A DNA stretch of 64,000 bases, taken from contig NZ_VFMM01000001.1 in assembly GCF_006715085.1 (NCBI RefSeq), positions 2,480,001 to 2,544,000 of the forward strand. The letters run 5' to 3'. Positions within the stretch are counted from its first letter, which is position 1; the number at the start of each line of letters is the position of its first letter. Made by a program: the position numbers and the translations under genes. The DNA is from Kribbella jejuensis. GTDB taxonomy: Bacteria > Actinomycetota > Actinomycetes > Propionibacteriales > Kribbellaceae. The notes below the pieces were generated by a model. That model saw only the letters and a list, made by a program, of their open reading frames with translations. It did not search any database and was not told the DNA's origin. Below, one piece after another: positions 49,992 through 58,466 of this stretch.

Positions 49992-50233
49992 ACTATCGCG
50001 TGGAGTTCCACGCGGCAGCGCTCGCTCAGCTCGGCGGATTACCGTCGGAAGCATTCGACGCTCTGGTGGAGCGTGTCACCAAGCTGGTCGGCGCACCGTG
50101 GGAAGCTCAGCCTCTCGACCCGGATGAACCTGCGTTTCGGCAGTGCGTGTTCGGGTCCTTCGGCCTGCTGTCGTTCCACGTCGACGAGCCGCAGGAAATG
50201 ATCCGGATCTTCGACGTGACCTGGGTCGGCTGA
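49988..50233 (+). CDS. RelE/ParE-like small protein, probable toxin
   Basis: An 81-residue protein with the ParE/RelE fold pattern: YRVEFHAAALAQLGGLPSEAFDALVERVTKLVGAPWEAQPLDP, then FRQCVFGSFGLLSFHVDEPQEMIRIFDVTWVG, the last strand typical of the family. The RNase-type catalytic residues are not obvious. Start GTG at 49988. It ends 258 bases before lanKC. Confidence 0.65.
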   Translation: MNYRVEFHAAALAQLGGLPSEAFDALVERVTKLVGAPWEAQPLDPDEPAFRQCVFGSFGLLSFHVDEPQEMIRIFDVTWVG

Positions 50234-50491
50234 CGAAACCTGCCGGGCGCATCAGACACCGTACGAAGTACTGCTGGGGAAGTTACGGGTTGTGATGGGT
50301 TCGGGATGGATTGACATGTTGTTGCGGGGGGATTCACGCTCAGGGGTGGCGGGAATGTAACGAAGAGTGTTTAGTTACTCACTCGTAGTGTGTGGGTTCT
50401 TCACAGCAGAGTGATGACATCGTGCACTACGCCGATGCCTGACGCGGCGCCCAAGATGTGGCGGGGCACCGCGAAAGGGGGTCGGACAGTC
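50234..50491 (+). promoter_or_regulatory. Promoter region of the lanthipeptide operon
   Basis: This 258-base gap precedes lanKC. It contains TTGACA at 50311-50316, an AT-rich block around 50350-50390, short inverted pairs GTAAC (50357-50361) and GTTAC (50374-50378), and AGTTAC both at 50281 and 50373. An AAGGGGG site lies about 11 bases before the start. A RamR-type regulator site is expected here, but the exact operator cannot be identified from the sequence. Confidence 0.35.
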
Positions 50492-53047
50492 ATGCATGAG
50501 AGTTACGAGTTCTACTGCCTTGCGGATCGGCAGTTCTACGAGACGCCGGCCAATCGTGGTGCGCGACATCCGGATTTCGCGATCACGCGCCGGGACGTCC
50601 CGGACGGCTGGCAGCACGTGCCAGGTGAGCAGTGGATGCACTACGCGCCGGACGGGCTGCGGCTGCCCCACCAGGGGTGGAAGATCCACGTCTCGGCCCG
50701 CCTGCAGGACGTCGACCGCACGCTGGCTGCGGTGTGGGACTACTGCGTCCCGCGCGGCATCGCGTTCAAGTTCCTGCGCAACGAGGCCGTCCTGGTGATG
50801 ACGAACTCGAAGGCTGCTCCCCGCGGGTCGAGCGGCAAGCTGGTGACGATCTACCCGAGCGACGACGCGCAGCTCGAGCTCGTCCTCAAGGACCTCAACG
50901 AGGTACTGCGCGGTGTCGAGGGCCCTTACATCCTGAGCGATCTGCGCTACGCCGAAGGTCCACTCTTCGTCCGGTACGGCGCCTTCGTCAGCCGCCACTG
51001 CCTGAGCCCGACCGGCGAACGCGTGCTCGCGATCGAGGATGCGCACGGCAACCTCGTCCCGGACCACCGCGGCCCGACCTTCGTCGTACCGCCGTGGATC
51101 CAGCTCCCGGACTTCCTGCAGCCGCATCTCGACGCCCGCAACGCGGTCACCACCAACGACCTCGCGTACACGATCGACGGCGTCATCCAGTTCTCCAACG
51201 GCGGCGGCGTGTACCTCGGCCACCACAACGAGACCGGCGCCCGCGTCGTGCTCAAGGAGGGCCGTCCGTACGCCGGTCTCGACATGGCCGGCCGCGACGC
51301 GGTCGCCCGGATCGCCCATGAGCGCGACATCCTGGCGCAGCTCGACGGCCTCGACGCCGTACCGCGGACGCACGACTACCTGCAGCTCGGCGAGCACCAC
51401 TTCCTCGTCCAGGAGCACATCGACTCGGTGTCGCTCCAGCGCGAACTGGTCCGCCGCTACCCGCTGACCCATCCCGACGCGACCGAAGCCCAGAAGGCCC
51501 AGTACGCCGAATGGGCGACCGCGATGATCGCGAAGGTCGGCGAGGCCGTCGGCCAGCTGCACGAGCGCGGCGTGGTGTTCTGCGACCTGCACCCGGACAA
51601 TCTGCTCCTCGACGTGAACGGCAAGCTCACGCTGATCGACTTCGAGGTCGCGACCAAGGCCGAGGACCAGGCGCGTTCGACGCTGGCCCACCCGGGGTAC
51701 GCCGCCCCGCAGGACCGGCAGGGCGTCGATGTCGACCGGTACGCGCTCGCCTGTATCGCGCTCGGTGTTTACGCGCCGCAAGCAACGATCCTGCTCAATC
51801 TCCATCCGGGCAAGGCGTTCCAGCTCGCCGACATGATCGCGGACACCTTCCCGGTGCCGCGCGCCGCGCTCGACGAGGCGGTCCGCACGATCGTCGGCAA
51901 CAACACGACCAACGACCTCGAAGACATCGCTCTCCCCGGCAAGGCCGACTGGACCGACGTACGCGCGGCCCTCACGAAGGCGATCGTCGCGAGCGCGACA
52001 CCGGAACGCACCGACCGGCTGTTCCCCGGCGACATCGCGCAGTTCCGCGACGGCGGCGGCATCGACCTCGCGACCGGCGCCGCCGGCGTCCTCTACGCGC
52101 TTGCGAAGACGGGCGCAGGACGTTTCCCGGAGTACGACGACTGGCTTCGCAAGCAGGCACTCCAGACGCCGGCCGGCCCAGGGCTGTACGACGGTCTGCA
52201 CGGCGTCGCGCATGTACTCGACGAGCTCGGCCATCGCCAGGACGCTCTTGACCTGATCGACCGGACGCTCGCCGACGACTGGACCACCCGCGAGCTCGGT
52301 CTGCACTCCGGCCTCGCCGGCATCGGCCTCAACCTGCTGCACTTCGACACCGAGCCGGCGCTGCGCGCGCAGGCGGTCCGGGTGCTCGACTTGGTCGCCG
52401 ATCGCCTCGAGGCCGACATAGCGGAGATCAGCGGCGGTCAGTACGCGCGAGCCGGTCTGATGTACGGGTCGTCCGGGCCGGCGCTGCTGTTCCTCAACGC
52501 GTTCGAGCAGCTCGGCGACACCGGTCTGCTCGACCTCGCGGAGATCGCGATCCGGCAGGACCTGAAGCGGACCGTGCTCACCGACGACGGGATGCGCCAG
52601 GTCAACCAGGGCTGGCGAACGCTGCCGTACCTGGAGGAAGGCTCCGCCGGCATCGCGCTCGTCCTCGAGCGGTACCTGCGCCATCGCCCGTCCGACGAGC
52701 TGACCGCCACGCTCGCCGAGCTCAAGCGGGTCACGCACTGTTCTTACTACGTCCAGCCCGGACTCTTCATGGGCCGCGCCGGGCTCCTCCTCACGGCCGC
52801 GGCGCTGGACGATCAGGTCGACGACCTGATCCACGGTCTCGGCTGGCACGCGATGCCGTTCGAGGGCGGCCTCGCGTTCCCGGGCAACCAGCTGCTCCGT
52901 CTCTCGATGGACCTGGCGACCGGATCGGCCGGCGTACTGCTGGCCCTGGGCGCGGCGCTGCATGACGCGCCGGTGGCCCTCCCGTTCCTCGGACCTCCCC
53001 AGTGGTCCGAGTACTCATCCCGACAACCTGCACCGAAGGAGGTGTAA
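50492..53047 (+). CDS. lanKC: Class III lanthipeptide synthetase (lyase-kinase-cyclase)
   Basis: LanKC installs lanthionine/labionin rings by phosphorylating Ser/Thr, eliminating phosphate and cyclising onto Cys. The 851-residue protein has three parts: an N-terminal lyase-like region (about 1-220), a Ser/Thr-kinase-like domain (about 230-430) with Lys255 (VVLKEG), catalytic Asp365/Asn370 in CDLHPDN, and metal-binding Asp383 in IDFE (replacing DFG), and a C-terminal LanC-like cyclase (about 500-840). The cyclase has LPYLEEGSAG where LanC enzymes carry their zinc cysteine, so it lacks zinc ligands, as expected of class III. The ATG at 50492 has a ribosome binding site. The precursor gene follows four bases after its stop. 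Confidence 0.95.
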   Translation: MHESYEFYCLADRQFYETPANRGARHPDFAITRRDVPDGWQHVPGEQWMHYAPDGLRLPHQGWKIHVSARLQDVDRTLAAVWDYCVPRGIAFKFLRNEAVLVMTNSKAAPRGSSGKLVTIYPSDDAQLELVLKDLNEVLRGVEGPYILSDLRYAEGPLFVRYGAFVSRHCLSPTGERVLAIEDAHGNLVPDHRGPTFVVPPWIQLPDFLQPHLDARNAVTTNDLAYTIDGVIQFSNGGGVYLGHHNETGARVVLKEGRPYAGLDMAGRDAVARIAHERDILAQLDGLDAVPRTHDYLQLGEHHFLVQEHIDSVSLQRELVRRYPLTHPDATEAQKAQYAEWATAMIAKVGEAVGQLHERGVVFCDLHPDNLLLDVNGKLTLIDFEVATKAEDQARSTLAHPGYAAPQDRQGVDVDRYALACIALGVYAPQATILLNLHPGKAFQLADMIADTFPVPRAALDEAVRTIVGNNTTNDLEDIALPGKADWTDVRAALTKAIVASATPERTDRLFPGDIAQFRDGGGIDLATGAAGVLYALAKTGAGRFPEYDDWLRKQALQTPAGPGLYDGLHGVAHVLDELGHRQDALDLIDRTLADDWTTRELGLHSGLAGIGLNLLHFDTEPALRAQAVRVLDLVADRLEADIAEISGGQYARAGLMYGSSGPALLFLNAFEQLGDTGLLDLAEIAIRQDLKRTVLTDDGMRQVNQGWRTLPYLEEGSAGIALVLERYLRHRPSDELTATLAELKRVTHCSYYVQPGLFMGRAGLLLTAAALDDQVDDLIHGLGWHAMPFEGGLAFPGNQLLRLSMDLATGSAGVLLALGAALHDAPVALPFLGPPQWSEYSSRQPAPKEV

Positions 53048-53051
53048 ACAC

Positions 53052-53189
53052 ATGGCACTTCTCGACCTTCAGGGTCTCGAGACCCCGGGTTACGGCCACG
53101 GCGGCCACCACCACGGCGGCTCCACGCTGACCGTGCTGGGCTGCGCGTCGCAGACCCCGAGCAACCTGAGCCTGCTGCTCTGCCACTGA
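53052..53189 (+). CDS. lanA: Class III lanthipeptide precursor with Gly/His-rich leader
   Basis: A 45-codon gene with a perfect GAAGGAGG site (53035-53042) nine bases before ATG. The leader (about residues 1-23) starts MALLDLQGLETP, the LLDLQ-type recognition motif of class III precursors, and goes on with GYGHGGHHHGG. The core (about 24-45) has two ring units: S24xxT27xxxC31 and S37xxS40xxxC44, matching Ser-x-x-Ser-x3-Cys labionin motifs, the first with Thr. Pro12 is the only leader proline and Pro36 lies between the rings. It is the substrate of LanKC and probably of the prolyl oligopeptidase next door. Confidence 0.92.
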   Translation: MALLDLQGLETPGYGHGGHHHGGSTLTVLGCASQTPSNLSLLLCH

Positions 53190-53217
53190 TACGGCACCTG
53201 TATTGCCAGGTAGTGAG

Positions 53218-53245
53218 GCCCTGGGTGGGACACCCCGCCCAGGGC
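53218..53245 (+). terminator. Hairpin between the precursor and the protease gene
   Basis: Twelve paired bases (53218-53229 with 53234-53245, one G-T wobble) around a 4-base loop, 28 bases after the precursor stop. There is no T-tract, so it is more likely a partial terminator or mRNA stabiliser that raises the precursor level over downstream genes. Confidence 0.6.
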
Positions 53246-53320
53246 TGACCTGTCTACGGGTAGCTCCGGGCCTTCGGGCTCGTTGTGTCTGTGGAAGAGA
53301 GAAGTGAGGTGATCGATTCC

Positions 53321-55138
53321 GTGCAGGCTTATCCATGCGCCGAGCGTCTGACGCTCGTGGAGCAGGTGCACGGTTGTTCCGTTGCGGACCCGTACCGCTG
53401 GCTCGAAGATCCGGTAGCCGCCGCCCCGTGGCTGCGGGATCAGGACGAGTTGTGGCTGACGTACGCGGGCTCGCTGAGCACCCGGTTCCGCTGGAAGAAC
53501 GCCGTACGGCGGCTGTCCGACGTCGGCAGTGTGTCCGTGCCGGTGTGGCGCGGCGGCCGCTGCTTCACGGTACGGCGCGAGCCCGGGCACCACCCGGTCC
53601 TGTTCGTCGACGAGACGCCACTGCTGGACCTGAAGGATGGCCGGACCACGCTCGACGCGTGGCAGCCGTCGCCCGACGGCACCAAGGTCGCGGTGCAGCT
53701 GTCGCGTGGTGGCACCGAGCAGGCCTCACTGTCGGTCCTCGACGTCGCCACCGGACAGGTCGTCGACGGGCCGCTCGACGGCTGCCGGTACTCCCCGGTC
53801 GCCTGGCTGCCCGACAGCAGCGCCTTCTACTACGTCCGCTTCCGCCAGGTAAGGCGGCACGTGCTCGGCCAGGCGGACACGACGATCCTCGCGGACGAGG
53901 CGTCGTACGGGCTGGAGATCAGCGCGGACGGCCGCTGGCTGACGATCTGTACTACCGACAACCTGTGGCTCGCGGCTGACGACGCAGCGCCCACGCCTGT
54001 TCCGACCACGGGCACGACGATCATGTCGGTGGGTCCGGACGGGCGGCTGTACGTGGTCACCGCGGACGGGATCAGCGTCGGCGATCCGACCACGCCCACG
54101 GTCTGGCGCGAGTACAGCAAGCCGGACGAGCCATTGACCGGCCTGGCGATCCTGGACGACGACGTGCTCGTCGCCACCGCTAGCGCCATCGCCGTACACG
54201 ACCGCACCACAGGGACCTTCAAACGCAACGTGCAACTGCCCGGCGTCGGCTCCATCGGATCCCTGAGCGCCGACGGCAACCGAGCCTGGTTCAGCTACAC
54301 CGACAGCGTCACGTCGCCGACTGTCTACTGCTACGAGGCAGGCGACGCAGCGCCGTGGGGCGCGGTGCGACAGAGCCTCAAGGCGGAGACGCACCGGTTG
54401 ACCTATCGGTCCGCGGACGGCACCGAGCTCGAGTTGCGCGTGATCGGCGGACCCGGCCCGCGGCCCACCATCCTCTACGGGTACGGCGGCTTCGGGCAGG
54501 CGTTGACACCGACGTACTCCGCGTTCGCGCTGGCCTGGGTCGAAGCCGGCGGCGCATTCGTGACGGCGACCGTCCGCGGCGACGGGGCGGATCACCACGC
54601 CGGCACCGGCAACAACAAGCAGCACGTCTTCGATGACTTCATCGCCGCCGCCGAACACCTGATCGCGGACGGCTGGACCACCGCGGACCAGCTCGCGATC
54701 TGTGGTGAGTCCAACGGCGGTCTGCTCACCGCCGCCGCTCTCACCCAGCGCCCCGAGCTGTTCGCCGCGGCGGTCTGTTCAGCGCCGTTGACGGACATGG
54801 TCCGCTACGAGCGATCCGGTCTCGGCGAGCGCTGGACCGCGGAGTACGGGTCCGTCGATGACCCGGACGACTTCGCGAACCTCCTGTCGTACTCGCCGTA
54901 CCACCGCGTCTTCGACGGCGTGAAGTACCCGGCTGTCCTGCTGACCGCGTTCGGGAACGACACACGCGTGGATCCCTTGCACGCAAGGAAGTTCTGCGCA
55001 GCGCTACAACACGCGACCGCGGGTCCACGTCCGGTGCTGCTGCGGTTCGAACAGGACGCCGGACACACCACCGGCGGCATCAACCTGGCCGCCGACATGC
55101 TCGCCTTCCTCGCCGACCAGACAGGCCTCGACGCGTGA
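53321..55138 (+). CDS. Prolyl oligopeptidase (S9), probable leader peptidase
   Basis: A 605-residue cytosolic serine peptidase with an N-terminal propeller (about 60-370) and a C-terminal alpha/beta-hydrolase domain. The catalytic triad is Ser464 (GESNGG), Asp547 (GNDTRVDP) and His582 (QDAGHT). The N-terminus has the family hallmark VADPYRWLED. GTG at 53321 has GAGGTG ten bases upstream; an in-frame GTG at 53285 is also possible. Family enzymes such as FlaP in Kribbella cut class III leaders after proline. Its position between precursor and exporters supports the same role. It overlaps the next gene (GTGA). Confidence 0.93.
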   Translation: MQAYPCAERLTLVEQVHGCSVADPYRWLEDPVAAAPWLRDQDELWLTYAGSLSTRFRWKNAVRRLSDVGSVSVPVWRGGRCFTVRREPGHHPVLFVDETPLLDLKDGRTTLDAWQPSPDGTKVAVQLSRGGTEQASLSVLDVATGQVVDGPLDGCRYSPVAWLPDSSAFYYVRFRQVRRHVLGQADTTILADEASYGLEISADGRWLTICTTDNLWLAADDAAPTPVPTTGTTIMSVGPDGRLYVVTADGISVGDPTTPTVWREYSKPDEPLTGLAILDDDVLVATASAIAVHDRTTGTFKRNVQLPGVGSIGSLSADGNRAWFSYTDSVTSPTVYCYEAGDAAPWGAVRQSLKAETHRLTYRSADGTELELRVIGGPGPRPTILYGYGGFGQALTPTYSAFALAWVEAGGAFVTATVRGDGADHHAGTGNNKQHVFDDFIAAAEHLIADGWTTADQLAICGESNGGLLTAAALTQRPELFAAAVCSAPLTDMVRYERSGLGERWTAEYGSVDDPDDFANLLSYSPYHRVFDGVKYPAVLLTAFGNDTRVDPLHARKFCAALQHATAGPRPVLLRFEQDAGHTTGGINLAADMLAFLADQTGLDA

Positions 55139-56787
55139 TCACGTTCCGCGAGGTCGCGAAGCAGGGCCGTGGCCGGCTGCCGTTGATCGGGGTGAACGCG
55201 CTGATCGGCAGCGCGGTCACGCTCGCGCTGCCGTCGGTCCTCGGCCGGTCGGTGGACTCGATCGTGGCCGGTGACGGGTATGCCCGCTGGCTGATCGTCA
55301 CGGCCGCGCTGATCGGGCTGGGGATCGCGGCCAGCATCATCGACGCGTTCGCCGGCGCGGCGTGCGTCGCCGAGACCACCGCCTGGCTGCGGAACCGCCT
55401 GGTGCGGCACGTCGTCCGCGGCGGCCCCGACGGGACCCGCGCCTTCGAGACCGGCGACCTCGTCACCCGCGTCTCGGCGAACGCGACCGATGCCGCCCAG
55501 GCCGGCCCGGCCGCGGTGACGGCCATCGCCGCGATCGCTCCCCCACTGGGCAGCCTCGTCCTGCTGGCCGTCATCGACCCGTGGCTCGCGGCCGCCTTCT
55601 TCGGCGGCGTACTGCTGGTGATCCTGGTCCTCTGGACCTTCGCCAAACGCACCGCTGACGTGAGCCTCGCCTACCAGGAAACGCAGGGCCGGATCGCCGC
55701 GCTGCTGTCCGAATCGCTGACCGGCATCCGCACCATCCACTCCGCCGGTACGACGGAACGCGAGGAACGCCGCATCCTCGGCCTCCTCCCCGAACTGCAC
55801 CGGCACGGCGTCGTCACCTGGCGGATCCTCGCGCGCTCCGGCGCACAGGCCGCGGTCGTCGGCCCGCTCGTACTCGTAGCGGTCCTGGCCGTCGGCGGAC
55901 TGCAGCTCGTGGCCGGCAACGTGACCGCGGGCGAGCTGTTCGCCGCCTCGCAGTACGCCGTCCTCGGGGCCGGGCTCGGCAACCTGACCGGCGTCCTCGG
56001 CGAGCTCGCCCGCGCGAAGGCCGGTGTACGGCGGTCCGCCGAGGTGGCCGCGATCGAGTCCGTCCCGCACGGCTCGCTGACGCTGCCGCCTGGGACCGGC
56101 CAGCTGACGTTCGACGGCGTGAGTGTCTTCGCCGGCGAGAAGGTCCTGCTGGACAACGTGAACCTCGACCTGCCGGGCGGGGTGACTGTCGCGGTCGTCG
56201 GCCCTAGCGGCGCCGGCAAGTCGGTGCTCGCGGCAGTTGCGGCGCGGTTGCGTGATCCGTCGGCCGGGCAGGTCTCGCTGGACGGCGTACCGCTGCAGGC
56301 GGTCAGCCGACGGGCACTGCGGCACGCGGTCGGGTGCGCGTTCGAGCGCCCGCAGCTGGTCGGCCGGACCGTCGGCGAGGCCATCGACCCGCATGCGGTC
56401 AGCCCGGTCCGGACGCTCGCCGCGGCCCGCGCGACACACGCCCACGACTTCGTCAGCCGGCTCCCCGACGGGTACTTCACCTCGTTGCGCAAGGCACCGA
56501 TGTCCGGCGGCGAACGGCAACGCCTCGGCCTCGCGCGCGCCTGGTCCGCCCGTCGTCTGCTCGTCCTGGACGATGCCACGTCGAGCCTCGACACCGCGAC
56601 CGAACGCCAGATCAGCCGCACTCTCACCGAGGACCGCCGGCACCGGACCCGCCTGATCGTCACGCACCGCCCCGCCACCGCGGCTCGCGCCGACCTGGTC
56701 ATCTGGCTCGACCGGGGCCAGGTCCGCGCCATCGCCCCCCACGCCGACCTCTGGCACAACACCTCCTACCGAGCCGTGTTCGGATGA
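55135..56787 (+). CDS. ABC exporter half-unit 1 (transmembrane plus ATPase)
   Basis: A 550-residue half-transporter. The transmembrane domain covers about 1-310. The nucleotide-binding domain (from about 335) has Walker A GPSGAGKS (356-363), signature MSGGERQRLGLARAW and Walker B LLVLDDATSSLD, with an H-loop THRP. It lacks an N-terminal C39 peptidase, which fits the presence of a separate leader protease. Overlapping starts link it to the protease and to the second half-unit. Both are of RamA/RamB type and should form a heterodimer that exports the lanthipeptide. Confidence 0.9.
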   Translation: MITFREVAKQGRGRLPLIGVNALIGSAVTLALPSVLGRSVDSIVAGDGYARWLIVTAALIGLGIAASIIDAFAGAACVAETTAWLRNRLVRHVVRGGPDGTRAFETGDLVTRVSANATDAAQAGPAAVTAIAAIAPPLGSLVLLAVIDPWLAAAFFGGVLLVILVLWTFAKRTADVSLAYQETQGRIAALLSESLTGIRTIHSAGTTEREERRILGLLPELHRHGVVTWRILARSGAQAAVVGPLVLVAVLAVGGLQLVAGNVTAGELFAASQYAVLGAGLGNLTGVLGELARAKAGVRRSAEVAAIESVPHGSLTLPPGTGQLTFDGVSVFAGEKVLLDNVNLDLPGGVTVAVVGPSGAGKSVLAAVAARLRDPSAGQVSLDGVPLQAVSRRALRHAVGCAFERPQLVGRTVGEAIDPHAVSPVRTLAAARATHAHDFVSRLPDGYFTSLRKAPMSGGERQRLGLARAWSARRLLVLDDATSSLDTATERQISRTLTEDRRHRTRLIVTHRPATAARADLVIWLDRGQVRAIAPHADLWHNTSYRAVFG

Positions 56788-58466
56788 AGCGCGAGCTCTT
56801 GTACGGCGCGGCGGCGCTTCGGAGCAAGGCGACGCTCGGGTTGATTGGGTGGTCGGTTCCGGAGATCTTGCCGACGGCGGTGTACGGGATCGCGGTGGCT
56901 CGGGCGACGGACAGTTTTCTCGGTGGGCATGCGTGGCAGGGGATCGCGTGGCTGGGTGGGTTGGTCGCGACCGCGGGGCTCGGGGCGGCCGGCGCGCGGC
57001 AGGTGTACGGGCGGCTCGGCGACCTGGTCGAGCCGTTGCGTGACGACCTGGTCCGGCGGGTGGTGGGCGGCGCGCTCCGTACCTCGAACAACGGCACAGA
57101 CGGCACCGGGGACGACGGCGCGGTCGCCCGGTTGAACCGGCAGGTCGAGATCGTCCGCGACACGTTCGCCGGGCTCGTCCTGGTGCTGCGGAGCTTCGCG
57201 GTCACGTTGTTCGGCGTACTCACGGGTTTGTTGTCGCTCGCGCCGATGATCGCGGCGTTCGTCGTACCGCCGTTCCTGCTGGGGTTCGGGTTGTCGCTGG
57301 CGGTGCTCGGGATGGCGGCCGACCGGGTCCGGGCGTCGTTGACGGCGGACGAGGAGCTCGCATCCACGGCGGGCATGGTGTTCGGTGGGGTCCGCGACAT
57401 CACCGCGACCGGCGCCGAGGAGTACGCGGAATGGCTCGTGGGCCAGCCGATTCAGGCGCACGCGGCGGCGGAGCGCGCGTTGGCGAAGGTGTCGGCGCTG
57501 CGGACGTTGTGCTTCGCGGTGGGCGGCTGGTTGCCGTTGCTGATCCTGTTGGCGACCGGGCCGTGGCTGGTCGGGCGCGGCGTCAGTACCGGCACGGTGC
57601 TCGGCGGGCTGACCTACGTACTGATCGGATTGCAGCCCGCGTTGAACACGGTCATGAACGCGCTTGGCGACAGCGGTCTGCGGTACGTCATCACGCTCGG
57701 CCGGATCCTCGATACGTCAACACCTAAAGAGAAACCGCGTCCGGTGGACGAGCTGAGCGGCTACCAGGTCCGGCTGCGCGGACTGACGTTCGCGTACGGA
57801 CCGAAAGCCGAGCCCGTGCTGGACAATCTCGAGCTGACCATCGCCGAAGGTGAGCACGTGGCCGTCGTCGGGCCGAGCGGCATCGGCAAGTCGACGCTGG
57901 CCGGACTGGTGTGCGGGATGCTGACGCCGACCCAAGGCCGGCTCCTGCTCGGCGGCGCCGCGCCGGCCGAGGTGACCACCGAGCGGCTCGCGCAGACCCG
58001 GGTCCTGATTCCGCAGGAGGCATACGTCTTCACCGGCACGGTCCGCGACAACCTCGCTTATTTGTTGCCCGATGCAACGGATCATCAGCTCGAGCTGGCC
58101 ACGAAGACGGTCGGCGCGGACCAGCTCGTCGAACGCCTCGGTGGTCTGCACGCCGACGTCAAGCCGGCCGAACTTTCCGCCGGCGAGAAGCAGCTGCTCG
58201 CGCTGGTCCGCGCGTACCTGTCTCCCGCGCCGCTCGTGGTGCTCGACGAGGCGACCTGCTTCCTCGACCCCGAGGCCGAACGCCAGGCCGAGGAAGCGTT
58301 CGCGAAACGTCCTGGCACGCTGATCGTGATCGCGCACCGGATCAGTTCGGCCCTGCGCGCAAAGCGCATCCTGGTCCTCGACGGCAACAAGGCAGCCCTC
58401 GGCACCCACGCGGGGCTGATGCGCACGTCCCGCATGTACCGCGACCTGCACGGCAGCTGGAGCTAA
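56784..58466 (+). CDS. ABC exporter half-unit 2 (transmembrane plus ATPase)
   Basis: A 560-residue half-transporter. The membrane domain covers about 1-310. The nucleotide-binding domain has Walker A GPSGIGKS (363-370), signature LSAGEKQLLALVRAYL, Walker B LVVLDEATCFLD and H-loop AHR. The serine-glycine pattern LSAGE differs from LSGGE in the partner, as in heterodimeric exporters. ATG at 56784 overlaps the previous stop (ATGA). Its last four bases overlap the convergent regulator gene. Confidence 0.9.
   Translation: MKRELLYGAAALRSKATLGLIGWSVPEILPTAVYGIAVARATDSFLGGHAWQGIAWLGGLVATAGLGAAGARQVYGRLGDLVEPLRDDLVRRVVGGALRTSNNGTDGTGDDGAVARLNRQVEIVRDTFAGLVLVLRSFAVTLFGVLTGLLSLAPMIAAFVVPPFLLGFGLSLAVLGMAADRVRASLTADEELASTAGMVFGGVRDITATGAEEYAEWLVGQPIQAHAAAERALAKVSALRTLCFAVGGWLPLLILLATGPWLVGRGVSTGTVLGGLTYVLIGLQPALNTVMNALGDSGLRYVITLGRILDTSTPKEKPRPVDELSGYQVRLRGLTFAYGPKAEPVLDNLELTIAEGEHVAVVGPSGIGKSTLAGLVCGMLTPTQGRLLLGGAAPAEVTTERLAQTRVLIPQEAYVFTGTVRDNLAYLLPDATDHQLELATKTVGADQLVERLGGLHADVKPAELSAGEKQLLALVRAYLSPAPLVVLDEATCFLDPEAERQAEEAFAKRPGTLIVIAHRISSALRAKRILVLDGNKAALGTHAGLMRTSRMYRDLHGSWS

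Follow-up and report, generated by a model that had tools for sequence, protein, structure and literature searches.

The locus

The DNA analysed here is a stretch of 64,000 nucleotides from Kribbella jejuensis (assembly GCF_006715085.1, contig NZ_VFMM01000001.1, positions 2,480,001 to 2,544,000 of the forward strand), referred to below as the window. It carries a compact gene cluster in the order lanKC-lanA-POP-ABC-ABC, where POP denotes a prolyl oligopeptidase-family peptidase. Its features are as follows.

50390..53047, + strand: lanKC, class III lanthipeptide synthetase (NF038151, 1071 bits, cut-off 575; RamC_N PF25816; Pkinase); the start may be an ATG near 50492.
52988..53011, + strand: 8-bp hairpin CTCGGACC-8 nt-GGTCCGAG, located within lanKC near its 3' terminus and about 40 nt short of the first lanA codon (z -4.42 on folding; 0 of 200 shuffles).
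53052..53189, + strand: lanA, precursor gene and flaA orthologue, 45 amino acids plus stop (family models, genus orthologues).
53058..53072, + strand: leader recognition motif LLDLQ, residues 3-7 (from the sequence).
53085..53087, + strand: codon of Pro12, that is Pro(-12), the expected POP cut site (counted from Ser24; FlaP precedent).
53088..53120, + strand: Gly/His spacer GYGHGGHHHGG, residues 13-23 or -11 to -1 (translation, conservation, His enrichment).
53121..53186, + strand: core STLTVLGCASQTPSNLSLLLCH, which has a C-terminal His and two ring motifs of the form [ST]xx[ST]xxxC (from the sequence).
53217..53246, + strand: GC-rich stem-loop directly 3' of lanA, its bases varying in relatives (from folding; a possible partial terminator or mRNA stabiliser).
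53285..55138, + strand: lanP, FlaP-like S9 prolyl oligopeptidase-family peptidase (PF00326, 139 bits; PF02897, 96 bits); start codon provisional.
55135..56787, + strand: ABC transporter 1 (PF00664 and PF00005).
56784..58466, + strand: ABC transporter 2 (PF00005, 90 bits), its ATG start overlapping the stop codon of ABC transporter 1.

Translation of 53052-53189 yields the 45-residue peptide MALLDLQGLETPGYGHGGHHHGGSTLTVLGCASQTPSNLSLLLCH. Counting Ser24 as core position +1, residues 13-23 read GYGHGGHHHGG, with histidines at 16, 19, 20 and 21; the four histidines in eleven residues that the initial annotation had placed between Pro12 and the core are thus present as described. The peptide scores 59.2 bits against NCBIfam NF033212 (SapB/AmfS; cut-off 25) and 56.5 bits against Pfam RamS PF19402 (cut-off 24.3). 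Both matches, together with the adjoining lanKC, bear out the earlier reading of a class III precursor, and judged by these family models 53052-53189 is a genuine member of the SapB/AmfS family. Its leader also has proline at -12 and a FlaP-like POP gene adjoins it, features by which lanA is best explained as encoding the FlaA-type (flavipeptin-type) precursor in a class III lanthipeptide cluster of Kribbella.

The neighbouring genes agree with these assignments. Solved relatives of the lanKC product are LanKC enzymes (SalKC, 9ugq; also 8sam/8sap), and the best solved chains for the product of lanP, 3' of lanA, are prolyl endopeptidases, in keeping with the prolyl oligopeptidase that the annotation had seen next to the precursor. 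The start of ABC transporter 2 was assigned by hand at residue 151 of a longer open reading frame; the query was shortened there, and relatives align from its first residues.

Expected cut site and relation to flavipeptin

According to PMC10885120, efficient cleavage after Pro(-12) by FlaP of the flavipeptin pathway requires that the rings be in place, and it leaves residues -11 to -1 on the product. The removal of these residues was at first unexplained, and AplP-type metalloproteases were suggested later (PMC10885120). Pro12 of the lanA peptide lies at exactly -12, and the Gly/His segment begins where the flavipeptin cut falls, so that the FlaP precedent supports the cut after Pro12 that had been proposed for this locus. 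Such a cut would leave GYGH at the N-terminus, with histidine fourth; one more residue would have to come off for X-X-His, as had been correctly counted. A partly trimmed tail is plausible, since the same account describes class III and class IV peptides as mixtures that differ in the residues removed by aminopeptidases (PMC10885120). Six Peptidase_M1 matches are encoded in the genome of the window.

Does flavipeptin itself carry the segment? One genome of our set (G009), which appears to be that of Kribbella flavida, encodes two precursors, MALLDLQGLETPGYGHGGHHHGGSTLTVLGCGSQRPSNLSLLLCH and one with a 10-residue spacer, TGGGGGGGGG. The former has the 11-residue spacer GYGHGGHHHGG, and because it alone of the two has proline at -12, it is probably the published FlaA, which would then carry this spacer. 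The initial annotation had named the occurrence of the same segment in flavipeptin-type precursors as a point against its proposal; given this probable identity of FlaA, the segment does in substance occur there. The lanA locus thus resembles the flavipeptin system (FlaA/FlaP/FlaKC) in genus, cluster type, peptidase, Pro(-12) cut site and, on the same identification, spacer. It differs in belonging to another genome of the genus and in two core residues (A32G and T35R).

Conservation within Kribbella

The genus search returned 49 match rows, 36 of them main orthologues of lanA and 13 others. Matches occur in 37 of 38 genomes, that of the window included: 36 hold the main orthologue and one only a second type of precursor. 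The 12-residue leader MALLDLQGLETP is identical in all 36 orthologues, and every one of these precursor genes is flanked by lanKC and, on the opposite side, by a POP gene; identity to the POP of the window is about 53-73% over the stretches seen at the 35 other loci. The spacer is more variable, with 11 variants of 9-12 amino acids and 1-5 histidines. At least one histidine is present in 36/36 orthologues and at least three in 33/36, which exceeds chance, and 19 have exactly GYGHGGHHHGG. A special status of the segment, as the initial annotation had implied, is not supported by this comparison: 36 of 38 genomes of the genus have the orthologue, and the trait extends further. Uniqueness of the histidine segment is ruled out by the genus search and by the named relatives described below; judged by these alignments, the Gly/His spacer belongs to the family at large, and the precursor is of a kind already known.

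The second precursor type is present in 13 copies, with spacers holding 0-3 histidines. Eleven of these lie in lanKC-POP-ABC clusters of their own; the other two (L046 and L051) have no lanKC, POP or ABC gene in the 10 kb examined. These two, also collected as L090 and L104 respectively, are FlaA-like precursor genes of Kribbella sp. VKM Ac-2527 (L046/L090) and K. catacumbae (L051/L104), and no homologues of lanKC, POP or ABC were found around them in the 10-16 kb examined. The genome of the window itself has a second flavipeptin-type cluster (L048, G000:C3:523537-533674) with its own enzymes and the His-free spacer GSCGGGSGGGGG. A record named Streptomyces sp. SID13031 (L067) carries a Kribbella-type cluster; its name is probably outdated.

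Relatives in other actinobacteria

A scan of named genomes gave 67 related loci, members of the genus included. Gly-rich spacers with one histidine occur at 9 of 12 Streptosporangium loci and at loci of Actinocorallia, Jiangella (two), Actinoplanes and Virgisporangium. Six of seven Nonomuraea loci and all six Actinomadura loci have His-free spacers resembling ASSDVASGG or TASGGASGG, the spacer of Amycolatopsis and Labedaea reads GGKGGGGG, and Micromonospora members have SapB-like layouts. A POP gene accompanies 54 of the 61 FlaA-type loci (L052-L112), His-free ones among them; the seven exceptions are five loci at a contig edge and the two orphans. None was found at the remaining six loci (L113-L118). 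All 61 FlaA-type precursors end in Cys-His, the histidine codon in lanA being 53184-53186.

With the precursor family model, 46 of 394 genomes sampled from the class gave a match, as did 71 of 150 genomes of one family. Flanks were examined for 67 of these 71, which with others made 98 stretches, and a POP gene was found in 33 of the 98. In some clusters without a FlaP-like gene, Pro-Gly-Gly-His-poly-Gly precedes a quite different core, and several core types are paired with Gly-rich spacers that differ in length. Gly-rich spacers with histidine near the proline thus recur in other actinobacteria, also where no peptidase was detected, a sequence pattern that is new here.

SapB (RamS) and AmfS of Streptomyces share with the lanA peptide both family models (NF033212 and PF19402), an LLDLQ-type leader and two ring motifs. 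The precursors of one sampled family (f21) are, we presume, of this SapB/AmfS kind. They differ from lanA in that a FlaP-like gene was detected beside the precursor in 0 of 24 genomes and histidine between leader and core occurs in only 8 of 24. Several tandem arrays (L202, L208, L214, L228, L233, L235, L236 and L252) have a His-free copy, its spacer beginning with Thr or Asn, among His-bearing copies.

Histidine in glycine-rich spacers

Precursors gathered by pattern comprised 273 entries, 188 of them distinct. Spacers with at least six residues after the last proline and at least half glycine were retained (121 entries, 80 distinct spacers), a rule that places outside the set Nonomuraea and Actinomadura spacers such as ASSDVASGG as well as GYGGGHHHPGG of one Kribbella. 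In one case (L237) the spacer was truncated at an internal proline, and L051/L104, whose leader reads LLGLQ, were missed by two of the collection patterns. A spacer occurring at several loci was filed under the first. All counts below are of distinct sequences, not of independent events, and the p-values are overstated to that extent.

Leaving out the first residue, histidine makes up 97 of the 167 non-Gly residues in the 80 spacers versus 7 of 136 in control Gly-rich 10-mers (Fisher p 1.6e-24, overstated by relatedness). The control comprised 34 distinct 10-mers from 1117 other open reading frames of the window and the loci, chosen by a GC3 rule rather than by annotation. None of the 80 spacers is pure glycine: the 18 without histidine carry T, N, K, R, S, C, Y or other residues. 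His-free spacers are commoner when the first residue is not glycine (12/23 versus 6/57 of the others; Fisher p 1.5e-4).

The position of histidine is also constrained. In 35 of the 40 spacers with a single histidine it lies 3-5 residues after the proline, where 11.8 were expected, and its distance varies less from the proline (sd 1.18) than from the core (sd 2.14). Exact Pro-Gly-Gly-His is found in 19 of 80 distinct spacers. Spacer histidine is probably under selection and tied to the proline side, since it is enriched over the controls and anchored 3-5 residues after the proline. The bias in composition and the anchoring near the proline are, like the gene, its cluster and its conservation, direct observations.

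Dependence on the peptidase is less strict. Histidine occurs in 42 of 52 distinct spacers from POP loci and in 20 of 28 from loci without a detected POP; taking all 188 distinct precursors, 71 of the 100 with POP have histidine between leader and core, as do 43 of the 88 with no detected POP. Here absence of POP means no tblastn match to the POP of the window at 1e-8 in the stretch examined; orphan loci count as lacking it, and some contigs end early (L208, L199, L282 and L219 among them). Among His-bearing spacers, histidine is third after the proline in 4 of 42 from POP loci versus 15 of 20 from loci without a detected POP (Fisher p 4e-7). Where two or more such precursors lie beside the same enzymes, 8 of 26 arrays mix His-bearing and His-free copies, which argues against an essential role of histidine in modification or cleavage.

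Possible roles of the Gly/His segment

What could such a segment be for? The tail of class III lanthipeptide leaders is usually treated as a discarded linker. That histidine is strongly preferred, and anchored to the cut-site proline, across several groups of actinobacteria suggests a role for the tail. The best reading, which we consider reasonably probable, is that of a flavipeptin-type precursor whose Gly/His leader segment serves as a tether and is trimmed later. Docking of the precursor on LanKC would be the task of the LLDLQ leader helix, and the eleven residues of the Gly/His segment would form a flexible tether, giving the core access to the active sites. Rings would form first; POP would then cut after Pro(-12), with GYGHGGHHHGG staying on the product, and aminopeptidases, probably of the M1 family, would trim this tail wholly or in part. 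Histidine would most likely be kept because it is polar, is not dehydratable by the kinase and interrupts poly-Gly near the cut site. The tether function, the trimming enzyme and the reason for the histidines are what we infer from these data. An invariant leader (36/36) beside a spacer that shifts in length yet stays Gly/His is consistent with a tether. A plain tether fits most of the facts, but it does not fully explain how strong the preference for histidine is and how close it keeps to the proline.

Could histidine, a few residues after the proline, help POP or an unlinked protease to choose or pace the cut? Its anchoring to the proline rather than the core would fit, and so would the scarcity of histidine in spacers that do not begin with glycine (lacking in 12/23 versus 6/57), as though the residues next to the cut were read together. 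Yet 20 of 28 Gly-rich spacers without a detected FlaP-like gene also have histidine, while six Nonomuraea loci and four Actinomadura loci with sufficient contig have the peptidase and no spacer histidine. A strict tie of histidine to POP is rejected on both counts, and recognition by a protease seems to us unlikely.

The possibility raised originally was a metal-binding tail. In this reading an X-X-His (ATCUN) or His-cluster site laid bare by trimming would bind Cu(II) or Ni(II) in the secreted peptide, or bound metal would halt an aminopeptidase; in our estimate this is distinctly unlikely. An ATCUN-type Cu/Ni site is X-X-His at a free N-terminus. The lanA peptide can reach it by trimming, but the N-terminus expected after the POP cut lacks it, the histidine of GYGH being at position 4 and not 3; the third-position histidines in only 4 of 42 His-bearing POP-cluster spacers disfavour direct creation of such a site by the cut. 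The strong preference for histidine on the proline side and the exact Pro-Gly-Gly-His of 19/80 spacers speak for metal binding, as do the ragged N-termini reported for class III products (PMC10885120). Against it stand the His-free copies beside His-bearing ones in 8 of 26 arrays, the His-free second copy in the genome of the window, the lack of spacer histidine in six of the seven relatives from Nonomuraea and all six from Actinomadura, and the profile scan, in which no metal-handling family reached its cut-off among the cluster proteins scanned. The Pro-Gly2-4-His-Gly(n) junction is shared by actinobacteria that include Kribbella, Streptosporangium, Jiangella and Actinoplanes. In a broader form of the idea it would be a conserved Cu/Ni site of the N-terminus, with trimming brought to a stop at a metal-capped X-X-His, giving secreted metal-binding peptides or metal-gated maturation; this we regard as decidedly improbable. 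A search limited to open-licence papers gave no report of His-rich, Gly-rich, ATCUN or copper-related lanthipeptide tails, which is weak evidence of absence.

Noursin (NorA, LanKC-Hbt) offers a precedent of sorts. According to PMC10206099 it is a copper-binding class III lanthipeptide, binding only after leader removal, and its cluster likewise has a class III synthetase and an S9 peptidase gene. Its copper binding requires a core histidinobutyrine crosslink, however, and not a leader tail; its precursor combines the motif LELQEL with a single Cys, and a histidine of the core is crosslinked to Dhb (PMC10206099). The lanA peptide, by contrast, has LLDLQ and two Cys, and its histidines belong to the leader except for one at the C-terminus. 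A His-to-Dhb crosslink as in noursin was considered and rejected, the core layout being unfit for it (LLDLQ, two Cys, histidine only as the last core residue). Were the Gly/His tail to bind metal, or to pace trimming, it could help to explain trimmed product mixtures and might join noursin as another kind of lanthipeptide that binds copper; if the segment is only a tether, the case is an ordinary one.

The segment might also have no function, its low-complexity Gly/His codon repeats drifting by slippage in a part of the peptide that is discarded. Spacer length does vary (9-12 amino acids, 11 variants among 36 orthologues) beside an unchanging leader. Codons for glycine and histidine differ at two positions, and single changes from the usual glycine codons lead to Asp, Ser, Ala, Arg, Cys, Val or Glu. 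Histidine dominates nonetheless, although single changes would yield those other residues, and it keeps its place near the proline in several groups; drift without function is in our judgement very unlikely. A tether that is later trimmed remains our preferred reading.

Possible nucleotide-level signals around lanA

Among 15 genomes that share the same precursor peptide, identity extends to 40 of 44 degenerate lanA codons, a strong constraint on synonymous sites; over roughly the last 500 codons of lanKC it holds for 114 of 342 degenerate codons whose amino acid is invariant. The difference at fourfold sites is 0.054 in lanA versus 0.30 in that part of lanKC.

The constraint continues into the 3' end of lanKC, where 35 of the 36 positions of the block 52977-53012 are identical in 36 orthologues, and this block contains the hairpin 52988-53011. 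Four of its eight pairs change on both sides, and 94.6% of cells pair, versus at most 53.6% in slid controls, as counted in the 7 equal-spacing sequences of 14 aligned, the other 7 being left out. In some clusters of the second type the hairpin is retained but built from different bases. Folded singly, only 1 of 14 sequences lies far beyond its shuffles: the window has z -4.42, L092 -2.42 and L040 -1.91, and the other 11 fall between -1.33 and +1.21. Downstream, a helix of at least 10 pairs within 130 nt 3' of lanA is present at 48 of 48 genus loci versus 25 of 240 rough shuffles.

To judge from these comparisons, the lanKC-end hairpin and the helix after lanA look like RNA signals that set expression of the precursor; the hairpin may instead be a DNA operator. 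A Sigma-70 promoter scan of 52800-53400, blind to other promoter types, gave none near lanA, and Rfam gave no hit at gathering score in 50000-55500. One terminator-like site lies between lanA and the POP gene (53267-53282), with 6 pairs followed by TTGTGTCTGT; the mean in shuffles was 0.1.
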